DNA from: Streptomyces sp. AJS327
GTDB lineage: Bacteria; Actinomycetota; Actinomycetes; Streptomycetales; Streptomycetaceae
Assembly: GCF_013450295.1 (NCBI RefSeq)
Contig: NZ_SKBR01000003.1
Span: 682,001-746,000 of the forward strand
DNA: 64,000 bases
Direction of reading: 5' to 3'
Shown here: in pieces, positions 14,532-19,775 of the stretch
How positions within the stretch are numbered: position 1 is the stretch's first letter
Layout: each line of letters opens with the position of its first letter
The notes under the pieces: generated by a model
What the model saw: the letters and a program-made list of their open reading frames with translations, nothing else
Told to the model about the DNA's origin: nothing
Database searches by the model: none
Position numbers and translations under genes: made by a program

Positions 14532-16253
14532 GTGAACAGCCGCGAGGAGCGTCCCGCAGCGAGCGGTGGCCGATGCCTTCGGTGGCACTCGGTCCTCACC
14601 GGCGAACTGGCCAACGAGGTGGGCTCGGCGGATCGGCGCACCCCCCGCGACTGGACGGTCGACCTGCTGCTGTTCGGCTGGGCCGTGGGCCTCTGGCTGC
14701 TGATGACCCTGGCCTTCACCGGCGCCGCGTACCTGCCCCGCTGGCTGGTGGCGGTCGACGCGCCGCTCGGTGCCCTGTGCTGCCTCACGCTGTGGTGGCG
14801 ACGGCGGCGTCCGCTGCTGGTCGCGCTGGCGATGGTGCCGGTGGGCGCGATCAGCGACTCCGCGTTCGGCGCCCTGATGGTCGTCATCCTCAACCTCGGC
14901 CTGCGGGTGCCGTGGAAGCGCGGGCTCCCGGTGCTGGGTCTCTACGTCGTGGCCTCCGTGCCGTACGTCCTGCTCTACTCGGTGCCGCACGAGGGCTGGG
15001 CGACAGCGATCTTCGTCCTCGCGTACTACCTGGTCTTCTTCCTCTGGGGTACCGCCCTCCGCGCCCGCCGGATGCTGATCGCGCAGCTGCGCGCCGAGAC
15101 CGCGCGGGAGCGGGCGGAGCACGCCCGGCGGCTGGGGGAGGCCCGGCGGGCCGAACGCGGCGCCATCGCCCGGGAGATGCACGACGTCCTGGCCCACCGG
15201 ATATCCCTGCTCTCCGTGCACGCCAGCGCGCTCGTCTACCGTGCCGAGCAGGCCGAGGCGGGTACCGCCCCCGCCCTCCCGGGCCCCGAGATCGCGGACA
15301 GCGCGCGGGTGATCCGGGACAACGCCCACCAGGCGCTGGACGAACTCCGCGGCGTGCTCCGGATACTGCGCGACGACCCGGCCGCCGACCCCCCACGGTC
15401 CGCTGAACTCCCAGAGGTGCGCCGACCCGGAGCCGCCCCGGGCGACGGCGACCCGGCCGCGCGCCGCCCGCGCACCGGCCCACCGGAGCCCCGCCAGACC
15501 GAACCGGAACCGGAGCGGGGGCCGGAGCCGGGACCCGGGCCGGAGCGGGGGTCGGAACAGCGCCGGGAGCCCGCGCCCGAGACCGGCTCAGCCTCCGGGC
15601 CCGAGACCGGGTCGGCGTCCGCGCCCGTACCGGGGAACGCGGCCGTGACCGTCTCCAAGGGCCCACACCCGCTGGGGAGTTCGGCCCCGGAGGAGGACGT
15701 GGTGGGACAGGCGGAGGACGAGGGGAGGGCCCCCGGCGGGCCCTCCGGGGCCATCGGGGGCCGTACGGCCCCCGGGCGCGCGGCGGCGACGACGGCGTCC
15801 GCCGGGGTGTGGCCCGGCGGACGGCGGACGGAGCGGGCGCGGATCGAGCGCCCCCAGCCGACGCTCACCGATCTCGTGGCGCTGCTGGAGGAGGCCCGGA
15901 GGGCGGGACAGCGCGTCACCTACCGGGACAGCGCGGGGGCGGCGGCCCAGCGGTCGCTCTCGGCGCACCGGCAGCGGACCATCTTCCGGACGGTGCAGGA
16001 GGGGCTGACCAACGCCCGTAAGCATGCTCCGGGGCAGGAGGTCACGGTGCGGCTGTACGGGGCACCGGGCGAACGGATCACGGTCAGCGTCCGCAATCCA
16101 CTGTCCCGCGCCCGGCCACGCGCCCGGGTCCCCGGCGCCGGGATGGGCCTCACGGGGTTGGGCGAACGCGTGGCGCTGGACGGCGGCACGCTGGAGCACG
16201 GCTGTCGGGGCGGCTGGTTCGAACTGGCCGCCCGGCTGCCCTGGCCGGACTGA
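14532..16253 (+). CDS. Orphan DesK/NarX-type sensor histidine kinase
   Basis: A 573-residue membrane kinase. About five hydrophobic segments lie within residues 38-180, followed by a HisKA_3 dimerisation domain with His217 in IAREMHDVLAHRISLLSVHA and DELRGVLRILRDD. After this comes an unusual low-complexity insert of about 150 residues (285-435, rich in Pro/Glu/Arg/Gly with PEPGPGPERG-like repeats). The HATPase domain follows, with N-box Asn494 (QEGLTNARKHA) and GAGMGLTGLGERV. Such kinases nearly always precede a LuxR-type response regulator; none is present here, and a strong terminator closes the unit. GTG 14532 is 6 nt from TAGGCT, so it is probably leaderless. Confidence 0.82.
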   Translation: MNSREERPAASGGRCLRWHSVLTGELANEVGSADRRTPRDWTVDLLLFGWAVGLWLLMTLAFTGAAYLPRWLVAVDAPLGALCCLTLWWRRRRPLLVALAMVPVGAISDSAFGALMVVILNLGLRVPWKRGLPVLGLYVVASVPYVLLYSVPHEGWATAIFVLAYYLVFFLWGTALRARRMLIAQLRAETARERAEHARRLGEARRAERGAIAREMHDVLAHRISLLSVHASALVYRAEQAEAGTAPALPGPEIADSARVIRDNAHQALDELRGVLRILRDDPAADPPRSAELPEVRRPGAAPGDGDPAARRPRTGPPEPRQTEPEPERGPEPGPGPERGSEQRREPAPETGSASGPETGSASAPVPGNAAVTVSKGPHPLGSSAPEEDVVGQAEDEGRAPGGPSGAIGGRTAPGRAAATTASAGVWPGGRRTERARIERPQPTLTDLVALLEEARRAGQRVTYRDSAGAAAQRSLSAHRQRTIFRTVQEGLTNARKHAPGQEVTVRLYGAPGERITVSVRNPLSRARPRARVPGAGMGLTGLGERVALDGGTLEHGCRGGWFELAARLPWPD

Positions 16254-16333
16254 ACCGGACCGAACCGGAGTGAACCGACTGAACCAGTCCGGGCCCGACT
16301 GGACCGGAGCGAGCCCGGCCCGAGGGGTGATGG

Positions 16334-16374
16334 CTCCGGGGCCCTGCCCCGTCGAACCGGGCAGGGCCCCGGAG
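16334..16374. terminator. Perfect bidirectional hairpin terminator
   Basis: Perfect 16-bp arms (16334-16349 and 16359-16374, core GGGGCCCTGCCC) enclose a 9-nt loop. It lies between the convergent ends of the sensor kinase and the small cysteine-rich gene and probably ends both transcripts. Confidence 0.8.
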
Positions 16375-16391
16375 GGCTCGGGCGCGGTCCC

Positions 16392-16550
16392 TCAGCCGCA
16401 GCCGCCGGAGCAGGAGCACGGGCCGCCCGACTGGCAGCCGCAGCCGCAGCCGGGGCCGCAGCCGCAGGCGCCCACGACGGGCAGGCTGCGCGGTGTCCGT
16501 CCGTCCTCGGCGGCGGTGCCCGGGGAGGTGCGCTGGTCCTGGTCAGCCAT
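16392..16550 (-). CDS. Small eight-cysteine Gly/Cys-rich protein
   Basis: A 52-residue protein. Residues 1-26 are hydrophilic (MADQDQRTSPGTAAEDGRT, then PRSLPVVG). The last 25 hold eight cysteines separated mainly by glycine: CGCGPGCGCGC, five residues, CSCSGGC, Gly. The CxC/CxxxC spacing looks like a small metallothionein or other metal-binding peptide; a leader plus Cys/Gly/Ser core also resembles a precursor of a modified peptide, but no modifying enzyme is nearby. ATG 16550 is backed by an excellent ribosome site (gaggagg, complement of 16557-16563). It is flanked by phoU upstream on the same strand and a terminator downstream. A possible promoter is TTGATG-18-TGCAAT on the minus strand (complement of 16685-16714). 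The function is unknown. Confidence 0.7.
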   Translation of the reverse strand: MADQDQRTSPGTAAEDGRTPRSLPVVGACGCGPGCGCGCQSGGPCSCSGGCG

Positions 16551-16871
16551 CTGGTGTCCTCCTCGTCCGCCGGGCTGACGGAACGCCACCGCGTCCGCGC
16601 CCCGCCTCGCCTCGGGCCGCGAGGGGCGGGTGCGCGACCGCGACGGATCCGTCGTCCGGCATCGGTGCCGTCCGTCCGGCTGCCATTGCAGAACCGCCGG
16701 GTACGGCGCATCAAGGGCGCGCGGATGCACCCGGGAACAGGGGGCGCACATGGCCGTAAACCGCGCCCGGTCCCGTCCCGCACCGGATACCGAAACCGCC
16801 CAGTCCAGCAGGAGCCGCCCTGTCCCGGGCTCAACCGCCCCGTTCCGGGTCGACTCGCCCCGAACCGTGCC

Positions 16872-17570
16872 TCAGGCGTCCTCTACCGGGGCGGTGCCGT
16901 CGCCGCTGCTGCCGTCGCCGTCGATCTCGTCCGCGTAGTCGCCGGTCACCAGGTAGACGACCCGGCGGGCGACGGAGACGGCGTGGTCGGCGAAGCGCTC
17001 GTAGTAGCGGCCGAGCAGCGTGACGTCGACGGCGGTCTCGATGCCGTGCTTCCAGCGGTCGTCCATCAGGTGCTGGAAGAGCGTGCGGTGCAGCAGGTCC
17101 ATCGCGTCGTCGTCCTGCTCCAGCTGGAGGGCCAGGTCGATGTCCTTGGTAATGATCACCTCGGCGGCCTTCGCCATCAGCCGCTGCGCCAGCTGCCCCA
17201 TCTCCAGCAGCGTCGCCTGGAGGTCGCGCGGCACCGGCGACTCCGGGAAGCGCAGCCTGGTGACCTTCGCCACATGCTGGGCCAGGTCGCCGGAGCGCTC
17301 CAGGTCGGCGCTCATCCGCAGGCTGGTGACGACGATGCGCAGGTCGGTGGCGACCGGCTGCTGCCGGGCCAGCAGTTGTATCGCCCGGGTCTCCAGCTCC
17401 CGCTGGAGGTCGTCCACCTTCTCGTCGGCGGCGATCACACTCTCGGCGAGCTTGAGGTCCGCGTCGAGCATCGCCGTAGTGGCGCGGCCGATCGCGGAAC
17501 CGACGAGCCGGGCCATCTCGACCAGGCTGTCGCTGATCGAGTCCAGCTCCTCGTGGTACGCGTCCCGCAT
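16872..17570 (-). CDS. phoU: Phosphate-specific transport system accessory protein PhoU
   Basis: A 232-residue PhoU with two three-helix PhoU repeats (about 10-105 and 115-210). Metal-binding E/DxxxD-type motifs are visible in LRMSADLERSGDLAQHVAKV and LGRYYERFADHAVSVARRV. PhoU links the Pst phosphate transporter to the PhoR sensor and restrains signalling when phosphate is plentiful. The C-terminus is an acidic Gly/Ser tail. ATG 17570 has a gggaagg ribosome site; the longer reading frame upstream is a shadow of phoR. It is divergent from phoR-phoP with PHO boxes between them. Confidence 0.92.
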   Translation of the reverse strand: MRDAYHEELDSISDSLVEMARLVGSAIGRATTAMLDADLKLAESVIAADEKVDDLQRELETRAIQLLARQQPVATDLRIVVTSLRMSADLERSGDLAQHVAKVTRLRFPESPVPRDLQATLLEMGQLAQRLMAKAAEVIITKDIDLALQLEQDDDAMDLLHRTLFQHLMDDRWKHGIETAVDVTLLGRYYERFADHAVSVARRVVYLVTGDYADEIDGDGSSGDGTAPVEDA

Positions 17571-17690
17571 GGCTGTCCTTCCCTCACATGGCTCAGTTGA
17601 CGTCGCTTGACCGGTGTCTCGTACGGCCACCCGGGGGCCTGAGACCCCCACGTTCCCACGGTCCGCCCGAAATGCGACGGGCGCCGACCT

Positions 17691-17723
17691 CCGAAATGAA
17701 CCGGCCAGGACGCCGAGGTGAAC
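17691..17723 (-). promoter_or_regulatory. PHO box (PhoP direct repeats)
   Basis: Read on the minus strand, three consecutive 11-nt units are GTTCACCTCGG, CGTCCTGGCCG and GTTCATTTCGG. The outer two match the Streptomyces PhoP repeat consensus (GTTCACC-like) in 11-nt phase, and the central unit is degenerate. It lies between phoU and phoR, so PhoP probably autoregulates both. Confidence 0.75.
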
Positions 17724-17796
17724 TCTGGTAGACGCTTGTTCGAGCTGGGGACAGCAGCTCTGGGGCGCCGCCGGGCGGGGCGCATAATCTGGACAC

Positions 17797-19098
17797 ATGG
17801 ACGTGAACGCGGCGGTCGCCGCAGCGGCAGCGATCGCCGGGGTGTGTACCGGCGTGATCGCCATGCTGGCGTTCCGCTGGAGCGAGCGGGATCGGATCAG
17901 GCCGACCCGTTCCTCGCTGCACACCGGATCCGCGCTGCCACCCGGAGTGGACACCGTGCTGTCGGTGCTGCGCTCCTCCGCCGTCGTGCTGGACGAGAGC
18001 GACGCGGTGGTCAAGGCCAGCTCGGCGGCGTACGCGCTGGGCCTGGTCCGCGGGGGCACGCTCTCCGTCGAGCCGATGCTCCAGATGGCCCGGGACACCC
18101 GCAGGGACGGCGAGATACGGCAGGTGGAGCTGGACCTGCCGCGCCGGGGCACCGGACGCGGTGACGGGCTGGCCGTCTCGGCGCGCGTGGCGCCGCTCGG
18201 CTCCCGGCTGGTGCTGCTCCTGGTCGAGGACATGACCGAGGCCCGCCGGATCGAGGCGGTCCGCCGCGACTTCGTCGCGAACGTCAGCCACGAGCTGAAG
18301 ACCCCGGTGGGCGCGCTCTCCCTGCTCTCCGAGGCCGTGATGGACGCCTCGGACGACCCGGAGGCCGTCGAGCGCTTCGCGGGCCGCATGCAGTCCGAGT
18401 CGACGCGGCTGACCAGCCTCGTCCAGGAGCTGATCGACCTCTCCCGGGTGCAGAACGACGACCCGCTGGAGGACGCTGAGTCCGTCGCGGTCGACGACCT
18501 GGTGGACGAGGCGATCGACCGCTGCCGGCAGACCGCCGACAACAAGCACATCACGCTCGTCGCGGGTGGCACCGGCGGGCTGTACGTGTGGGGAAACCGC
18601 GGTCAGCTCGCCGCCGCCCTCGGCAATCTCGTGGAGAACGCCGTCAACTACTCACCGGCCCGTACCCGGGTCGGTATCGCCGGGCGCCGCACCGCGGCTC
18701 CCGGCGGGGACCTGATCGAGATCGCCGTGACCGACCAGGGCATCGGCATCTCGGAGAGGGACCGGGACCGGATATTCGAGCGGTTCTACCGCGTGGATCC
18801 GGCCCGGTCGCGCGCCACCGGCGGTACCGGCCTCGGCCTCGCCATCGTCAAGCACGTGGCCGCCTCGCACGGCGGGGAGGTCACGGTGTGGAGTGCCGAA
18901 GGCCAGGGCTCCACCTTCACCCTGCGACTGCCCGAGGCGGGCCGCGCGCGGGAGAAGGCCGAGGCGGCCCGGGAGCACCGGGACCGCCCAGGCGCGCTAC
19001 AGGAACCCGCCGCCTTCGAGGACGAGGAGCGGCGGCGCCAGCTGCAAAGCGCAGACGAAGCAGACGGACAACTCTCTGCCCCGGAGGTCCTCCCGTGA
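17797..19098 (+). CDS. phoR: Phosphate-sensing histidine kinase PhoR
   Basis: A 433-residue kinase. A single short N-terminal membrane segment (about 4-24) is followed by a degenerate PAS-like region (about 55-150), HisKA with His165 in ANVSHELKTPVGAL, and HATPase with NLVENAVNYSPA, DQGIGISERDRDRIFERFYRVD and GTGLGLAIVKHV. It phosphorylates PhoP in phosphate starvation. ATG 17797 lies 6 nt after TAATCT (17785-17790): a leaderless start. The stop overlaps the phoP start (GTGA). Confidence 0.92.
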   Translation: MDVNAAVAAAAAIAGVCTGVIAMLAFRWSERDRIRPTRSSLHTGSALPPGVDTVLSVLRSSAVVLDESDAVVKASSAAYALGLVRGGTLSVEPMLQMARDTRRDGEIRQVELDLPRRGTGRGDGLAVSARVAPLGSRLVLLLVEDMTEARRIEAVRRDFVANVSHELKTPVGALSLLSEAVMDASDDPEAVERFAGRMQSESTRLTSLVQELIDLSRVQNDDPLEDAESVAVDDLVDEAIDRCRQTADNKHITLVAGGTGGLYVWGNRGQLAAALGNLVENAVNYSPARTRVGIAGRRTAAPGGDLIEIAVTDQGIGISERDRDRIFERFYRVDPARSRATGGTGLGLAIVKHVAASHGGEVTVWSAEGQGSTFTLRLPEAGRAREKAEAAREHRDRPGALQEPAAFEDEERRRQLQSADEADGQLSAPEVLP

Positions 19099-19775
19099 CC
19101 CGAGTGCTCGTCGTCGAGGACGAGGAATCGTTCAGCGACGCGCTGTCGTACATGCTCCGCAAGGAAGGCTTCGAGGTCGCCATCGCGGCCACGGGGCCGG
19201 AGGGGCTGGATGAGTTCGAGCGGAACGGCGCCGACCTGGTGCTGCTCGACCTGATGCTGCCCGGCCTGCCGGGCACGGAGGTCTGCCGCCAGTTGCGAGG
19301 GCGCTCCAACGTCCCCGTGATCATGGTGACCGCGAAGGACAGCGAGATCGACAAGGTGGTCGGCCTGGAGATAGGAGCCGACGACTACGTCACTAAACCC
19401 TTCTCCTCCCGCGAGCTGGTCGCCCGGGTGCGGGCGGTGCTCCGGCGCCGCGGCGAGCCCGAGGAGGTCAGCCAGGCGGCGCTGGAGGCGGGCCCGGTGC
19501 GGATGGACGTCGACCGGCACGTGGTGACCGTCGCCGGAGCCAAGATCGACCTGCCGCTCAAGGAGTTCGACCTGCTGGAGATGCTGCTGCGGAACGCCGG
19601 GCGCGTGCTGACCCGGATGCAGCTGATCGACCGGGTCTGGGGCGCGGACTACGTCGGCGACACGAAGACGCTGGACGTTCACGTCAAACGGCTACGCGCG
19701 AAGATCGAACCGGATCCGGGCGCCCCCCGCTACCTGGTCACCGTCCGTGGCCTGGGCTACAAGTTCGAGCCCTGA
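19095..19775 (+). CDS. phoP: Phosphate response regulator PhoP
   Basis: A 226-residue OmpR-family regulator. The receiver domain has acidic residues E8/D9, phospho-acceptor D52 (LVLLDLMLPGLPG), VTAKDSEIDKV and YVTKPFSSREL; the winged helix covers about 130-224 (LPLKEFDLLEMLL, KTLDVHVKRLRAK, VRGLGYKFEP). It activates the phosphate regulon and affects secondary metabolism in Streptomyces. The GTG at 19095 overlaps the phoR stop by 4 nt, with ggaggt about 8 nt upstream. Confidence 0.94.
   Translation: MTRVLVVEDEESFSDALSYMLRKEGFEVAIAATGPEGLDEFERNGADLVLLDLMLPGLPGTEVCRQLRGRSNVPVIMVTAKDSEIDKVVGLEIGADDYVTKPFSSRELVARVRAVLRRRGEPEEVSQAALEAGPVRMDVDRHVVTVAGAKIDLPLKEFDLLEMLLRNAGRVLTRMQLIDRVWGADYVGDTKTLDVHVKRLRAKIEPDPGAPRYLVTVRGLGYKFEP

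Follow-up and report, generated by a model that had tools for sequence, protein, structure and literature searches.

The cysteine-rich small gene beside phoU in Streptomyces sp. AJS327 is mtpA, the ortholog of SCO4227, and probably encodes a metallothionein-like metal buffer

Genes and signals at the locus

The window analysed here is the whole stretch of 64,000 nucleotides from contig NZ_SKBR01000003.1 of Streptomyces sp. AJS327. It contains a short cysteine-rich gene, mtpA, which lies 3' of phoU on the same strand and converges with a sensor kinase gene on its other side. The features of the locus are:

14532-16253, convergent with mtpA: HisKA_3 sensor kinase (Pfam scan)
16334..16374, minus strand: candidate terminator, a strong G+C hairpin 3' of mtpA, between convergent genes
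16392..16550, minus strand: mtpA coding sequence, 52 amino acids and stop; Cys core of seven family-invariant cysteines and an eighth
16563..16558, minus strand: ribosome-binding site AGGAGG, 7 bases 5' of the mtpA ATG
16682..16722, minus strand: conserved block GCGCGCCCTTGATGCGCC ... TTCTGCAATGGC, putative mtpA promoter on the basis of its conservation
16714..16709 and 16690..16685, minus strand: -35-like TTGATG and, after an 18-base spacer, TGCAAT, both predicted from conservation
16872..17570, minus strand: phoU, 232 amino acids, Pfam PF01895, upstream of mtpA
17691..17723, minus strand: PHO-box-like site GTTCACC ... GTTCATT upstream of phoU
17797..19098, plus strand: PhoR-type histidine kinase (Pfam HisKA and HATPase_c), divergent from phoU, named phoR by gene order
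19095..19775, plus strand: PhoP-type response regulator (Pfam Response_reg and Trans_reg_C), named phoP by gene order

The frame read from 16550 to 16392 translates into MADQDQRTSPGTAAEDGRTPRSLPVVGACGCGPGCGCGCQSGGPCSCSGGCG, a protein in which 8 of the 52 residues are cysteines, all of them in CxC motifs, and which has no His, Phe, Trp or Tyr. The initial annotation, made from the letters of the DNA, had recorded this frame with its coordinates, its length, its eight cysteines and the adjoining phoU, all of which are confirmed, and the strand, which it did not give, is minus; the ribosome site that it described is the AGGAGG listed above. Between the phoU stop and the mtpA start there are 321 bases. 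A six-frame scan of the window finds the pattern CxCx3CxCxCx5CxC at a single place, 100 triplet-shuffled windows do not contain it, and a search of the genome of the same strain finds the mtpA locus with an E-value of 5.8e-29, the next-best place having 0.028. The strong terminator that had been proposed corresponds to the hairpin (-59 kcal/mol, z -4.85), which is likely to be the mtpA terminator, but it has no T-run and is absent from the output of the T-run-based terminator scan. In the convergent kinase, a long Pro/Glu/Gly-rich stretch separates the HisKA_3 part from the C-terminal part.

Family searches assign the protein to no accepted Pfam or NCBIfam family. The same is true of 15 homologues: one has a weak match to Metallothio_5 (E 0.041), and Metallothio_Pro matches none of them. 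Two sequence searches of solved structures returned nothing useful (seven weak unrelated rows, the best with E 0.41, and zero rows, respectively). A tblastn search of plasmids and phages had no match, which says little because the BLAST low-complexity filter was on. A scan of named genomes, which returned no Streptomyces, gave a 20-residue Cys/Gly match in a Nitrospiraceae bin that we take as chance.

The gene is mtpA, the ortholog of SCO4227, as judged by gene order, conservation, size, cysteine content and naming. A 2008 table (PMC2267785) lists SCO4227 as "Metallothionein protein (mtpA)", adjoining SCO4228 phoU, so that the remark in the initial annotation that the gene is too short for routine annotation was wrong. 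The name mtpA also appears in the title of a 2006 paper, as cited in PMC11019849, and the latter places mtpA immediately 3' of phoU and describes its transcription in another strain as coming mainly from its own promoter, with read-through from phoU in addition. Like MtpA/SCO4227 of S. coelicolor and S. lividans, which is small, named a metallothionein, and encoded beside phoU and the phoR-phoP pair, the window gene is a small cysteine-rich frame directly 3' of phoU on the same strand, with phoU divergent from phoR-phoP, and its product has the conserved core CxCx3CxCxCx5CxC. In S. coelicolor the order is SCO4226-4227-4228 (PMC4991794). A SCO4226-like gene (PF14026) directly downstream of mtpA in 8 of the 36 same-genus relatives (G001, G009, G013, G016, G017, G020, G022 and G026) reproduces this order; the genome of the window has no match to PF14026, a model that matches 28 of 61 genomes. 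Because the gene is the ortholog of one already called a metallothionein in print and studied beside phoU-phoRP, it is known, not new. The observation is thereby tied to a named gene, and its would-be novelty is removed: of the proposal of a new small metallothionein, the metallothionein-like part is supported, while "new" fails against the naming of 2006 and 2008.

Distribution and conservation of the cysteine core

We compared the locus with 60 relatives, namely 36 same-genus and 24 non-genus genomes. The 52-residue query matches 35 of the 36 same-genus genomes at E <= 0.001, and in the remaining one (G018) a cysteine-rich frame was found by reading 3' of its phoU. The core lies 3' of phoU, on the same strand, in all 36, and the two are at most 657 bases apart (the L015 copy is at a contig end). 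In an alignment of 15 diverse members, seven cysteines and another five residues of the core never vary; one or two further cysteines are optional. For the 19-residue core, 36 coding sequences (the window and 35 relatives, without L015) give pS 0.38 and pN 0.08, a ratio of 0.21 drawn from pairs that are not independent. The region is G+C-rich and full of long spurious reading frames, which might make one suspect a chance open frame here too, but the presence in 36 of 36 relatives, the invariant cysteines, the mainly synonymous change and the expression reported for another strain in PMC11019849 leave that idea a negligible probability. The view that this is a real gene is borne out, and phoU-linked homologues with conserved cysteines, the absence of which had been named as grounds for rejecting it, are present in every same-genus relative sampled.

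The N-terminal half is variable among homologues, and L046 and L050 read as a 27-residue Cys core alone, with start codons of homologues picked by script from the best ribosome site; the front half therefore seems dispensable. This bears on the suggestion, also raised initially, that the protein is a precursor peptide, with a leader half and a cysteine-rich core that is modified and exported. To the eye, a variable half followed by a conserved cysteine-rich half fits such a design. RiPP precursors have a conserved leader and a nearby modifying enzyme; here the front half varies and is absent in two members, and the five window neighbours scanned against Pfam (a kinase, PhoU, a kinase, a regulator and a phosphatase-family enzyme) include no modifying enzyme. 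The suggestion is therefore very improbable.

A profile built from the 15 members extends the family beyond the genus. In a sample of the family it has hits in 142 of 150 genomes, spread over 16 of 17 genera; in a sample of the order, in 188 of 197, including 177 of 181 same-genus genomes (own genome counted); and in a sample of the class, in 32 of 246, comprising 21 of 22 same-genus genomes and 11 of one other family. In the 15 other genera of the window's family, represented by one locus each, phoU is beside the core in 13, the exceptions being L125 and L128. One genome (G116) has a copy beside phoU (L141) and a second away from it (L140). Second copies away from phoU were noted in some genomes of the family (L140 and L156-L159), and L157 adjoins a gene for a ferritin-like protein. 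In the 24 non-genus genomes, the query matches four (G041, G043, G046 and G051), and the 4 kb fetched around these matches contain no phoU; 19 of the other 20 have phoU, and none of them has the core in the stretch of up to 1.4 kb read 3' of phoU (373 bases at L058, 1033 at L069 and L075).

In the second actinobacterial family, the core is present at all 11 fetched loci (L145-L155), and none of these 9 kb stretches contains phoU. A conserved protein of about 120 residues is encoded directly 3' of the core, on the same strand, at 8 of the 11 (L145, L147 and L149-L154). This possible partner would suit a metal site of a structural or iron-sulfur kind, or a donor of metal to one partner, in place of a general buffer. 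Beside the phoU-linked mtpA of the window, with its convergent downstream neighbour, no such partner is seen, and we regard this alternative as improbable. The protein of about 120 residues ends in Cys-x-x-x-x-Trp-Pro-Cys, and the one copy scanned has no Pfam family. At L150, the sole locus of this family scanned broadly, genes of the cytochrome bd type flank the core gene on one side, and genes for Dabb, DUF6406 and SecA on the other. In yet another family of the order (L044, L045, L047 and L048), a core CSCGGGCKCGCQSGG is found away from phoU and near a thiolase gene, which was identified by a scan at L045 and has its related gene at all four loci.

Among 20 reading frames at 8 of the 22 listed phoU-free loci, Pfam recognizes no metal sensor or exporter. 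Sixteen of the frames have Pfam families, one of them ferritin-like (L157), and four have none (L150:4009-4410, L125, L158:2100-2840 and L159), some of these being perhaps wrong frames. The notion that metal-handling genes flank the phoU-free homologues is unsupported, not refuted.

The conserved block upstream of mtpA

The layout approximately GTGCGCCGTTGATGCGCC, then 8-9 bases, then approximately GGGCATGCAATGGG, is conserved 5' of mtpA, and was noted in the window and at L009-L043 and L078-L142. In 97 distinct phoU-mtpA loci (100 loci with 3 repeats merged, 99 of the 100 chosen by mtpA match), the 18-base block is matched at 13 bases or more in 91 and at 15 or more in 83. Shuffled regions reach 13 bases in 4.4% and 15 bases in 0.15% of cases, and with the block reversed, 6 of 97 loci match at 13 bases and none at more. 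The block is missing at loci that include L050, L126, L127, L137, L141 and L143. An alignment of 85 rows, from which 6 of 91 were dropped as poorly aligned (L012, L046, L103, L133, L134 and L135), has a TTGATG-like -35, an 18-base spacer and a TNNANT -10 in 67 rows; 12 have no such -10, and 6 have other spacing. Conservation in this way supports the possible promoter mentioned in the initial annotation, with TTGATG, the 18-base spacer and TGCAAT; a scan with the sigma-70 consensus finds no promoter in 16200-17900. A structured RNA was considered for the same block and rejected, the consensus of the 85 rows being unpaired.

The whole two-block pattern, at three mismatches or fewer, occurs once each in 9 of 21 genomes, all same-genus, with no control matches; the copy in the window and those of 3 of the 12 same-genus relatives in this sample escape the scan. 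The left 17 bases, sought in seven genomes, are perfect only at mtpA (six genomes) and have one mismatch at mtpA in the genome of the window; the other 32 places have two mismatches each, and the reversed control gives 58. In the genomes scanned, the block is found only at mtpA and is apparently single-copy.

Two TGCGCC units in the block were considered as PHO boxes and rejected. GTTCACC is found in 0 of 36 regions upstream of mtpA versus 35 of 37 upstream of phoU, and on this count the block is no PHO box. The PHO-box-like pair upstream of phoU is shared by most of the relatives, 32 of 37 regions having a GTTCAY pair, whereas mtpA's own promoter has no GTTCACC-type 11-base repeats of the kind expected in the PhoP regulon; read-through from phoU could still bring mtpA under PhoP control. 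The direct repeat GTGCGCC-GTTG-ATGCGCC, which is kept across the genus and part of the family, lies over the -35, and its 11-base spacing is that of response-regulator sites. We tentatively suggest that a regulator other than PhoP is dedicated to mtpA. If so, the system would be a switch for a single gene, with a metal buffer being made in response to a shortage of phosphate (or to plentiful Mg). In print, the low-phosphate rise of mtpA is described as independent of PhoP, and deletion of SCO0877 raises mtpA (both PMC3282765), while PhoRP is stated to regulate SCO4226 and SCO4227 (PMC4991794). Ghorbel et al. 2006 may well describe the mtpA promoter.

Function of MtpA

The product of mtpA is probably a metallothionein-like cytosolic metal-thiolate buffer for phosphate-limited cells, with metal binding as a prediction. 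Behind a variable, apparently dispensable front half, the Gly-spaced core would wrap soft metal ions in a thiolate cluster. The gene would be served by its own conserved promoter, to which phoU read-through is added in the other strain, and mtpA is reported to rise under limiting phosphate. Most likely MtpA would act as a buffer of soft metal ions during phosphate starvation; cells that lose their polyphosphate would lose a store of metal, which is one possible reason for such a need. We favor this reading because of the phoU linkage in 36 of 36 relatives, the seven invariant cysteines, the core pN/pS of 0.21 and the core-only members, and also because of the SCO4226-4227-4228 order in 8 of 36, the metallothionein name and the low-phosphate rise. 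The link to phosphate offered by the initial annotation is likewise supported; that annotation was correctly read and largely correctly guessed, and its interpretation is partly supported. What may be new is how strictly the promoter block, apparently present in single copy, is kept, together with the existence of phoU-free relatives in the second family.

Several observations count against a buffer. Our literature search found no published demonstration of metal binding by MtpA; there is no accepted Pfam or NCBIfam family and no useful solved-structure match; and no metal sensor or exporter family is seen among the scanned neighbours of phoU-free homologues. Mg is not a thiolate metal. An mtpA reporter in another strain goes up with Mg and not with Mn or Zn, according to passages of PMC11019849 that do not mention Cu; the same source states that the Mg effect on saquayamycin does not need MtpA.

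MtpA might instead act mainly as a thiol redox buffer or sensor together with PhoU in oxidative stress, metal binding being secondary. A 2021 review (PMC7866108) puts forward that PhoU and MtpA may have a part in sensing or withstanding oxidative stress, and the cysteine-rich protein is indeed linked to phoU in all 36 relatives. This is unlikely, though, given that oxidative stress lowers SCO4227 to 0.14-fold in the wild type (PMC4991794), and that 11 genomes of another family have the core at places with no phoU nearby.

Returning to the metal-thiolate buffer, the protein has the features of a metallothionein in the broad sense: it is short and cysteine-rich with CxC motifs, and lacks Phe, Trp, Tyr and His. 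Small size, CxC motifs and predicted thiolate metal binding are shared with SmtA/BmtA (Pfam Metallothio_Pro) and mycobacterial MymT. SmtA, however, has His ligands and a zinc-finger-like fold, whereas the window protein has no His and does not match Metallothio_Pro. The cysteine domains of fungal copper and plant metallothioneins have a Gly/Ser-spaced CxC core devoid of aromatic residues, and L046 and L050 consist of nothing but a core of this kind. On account of this likeness to the fungal copper proteins and of the lack of His, we lean towards Cu(I) over Zn as the metal that MtpA would bind. Yet no sequence match to the fungal or plant domains is found in Pfam or solved structures, and the resemblance is likely convergent.
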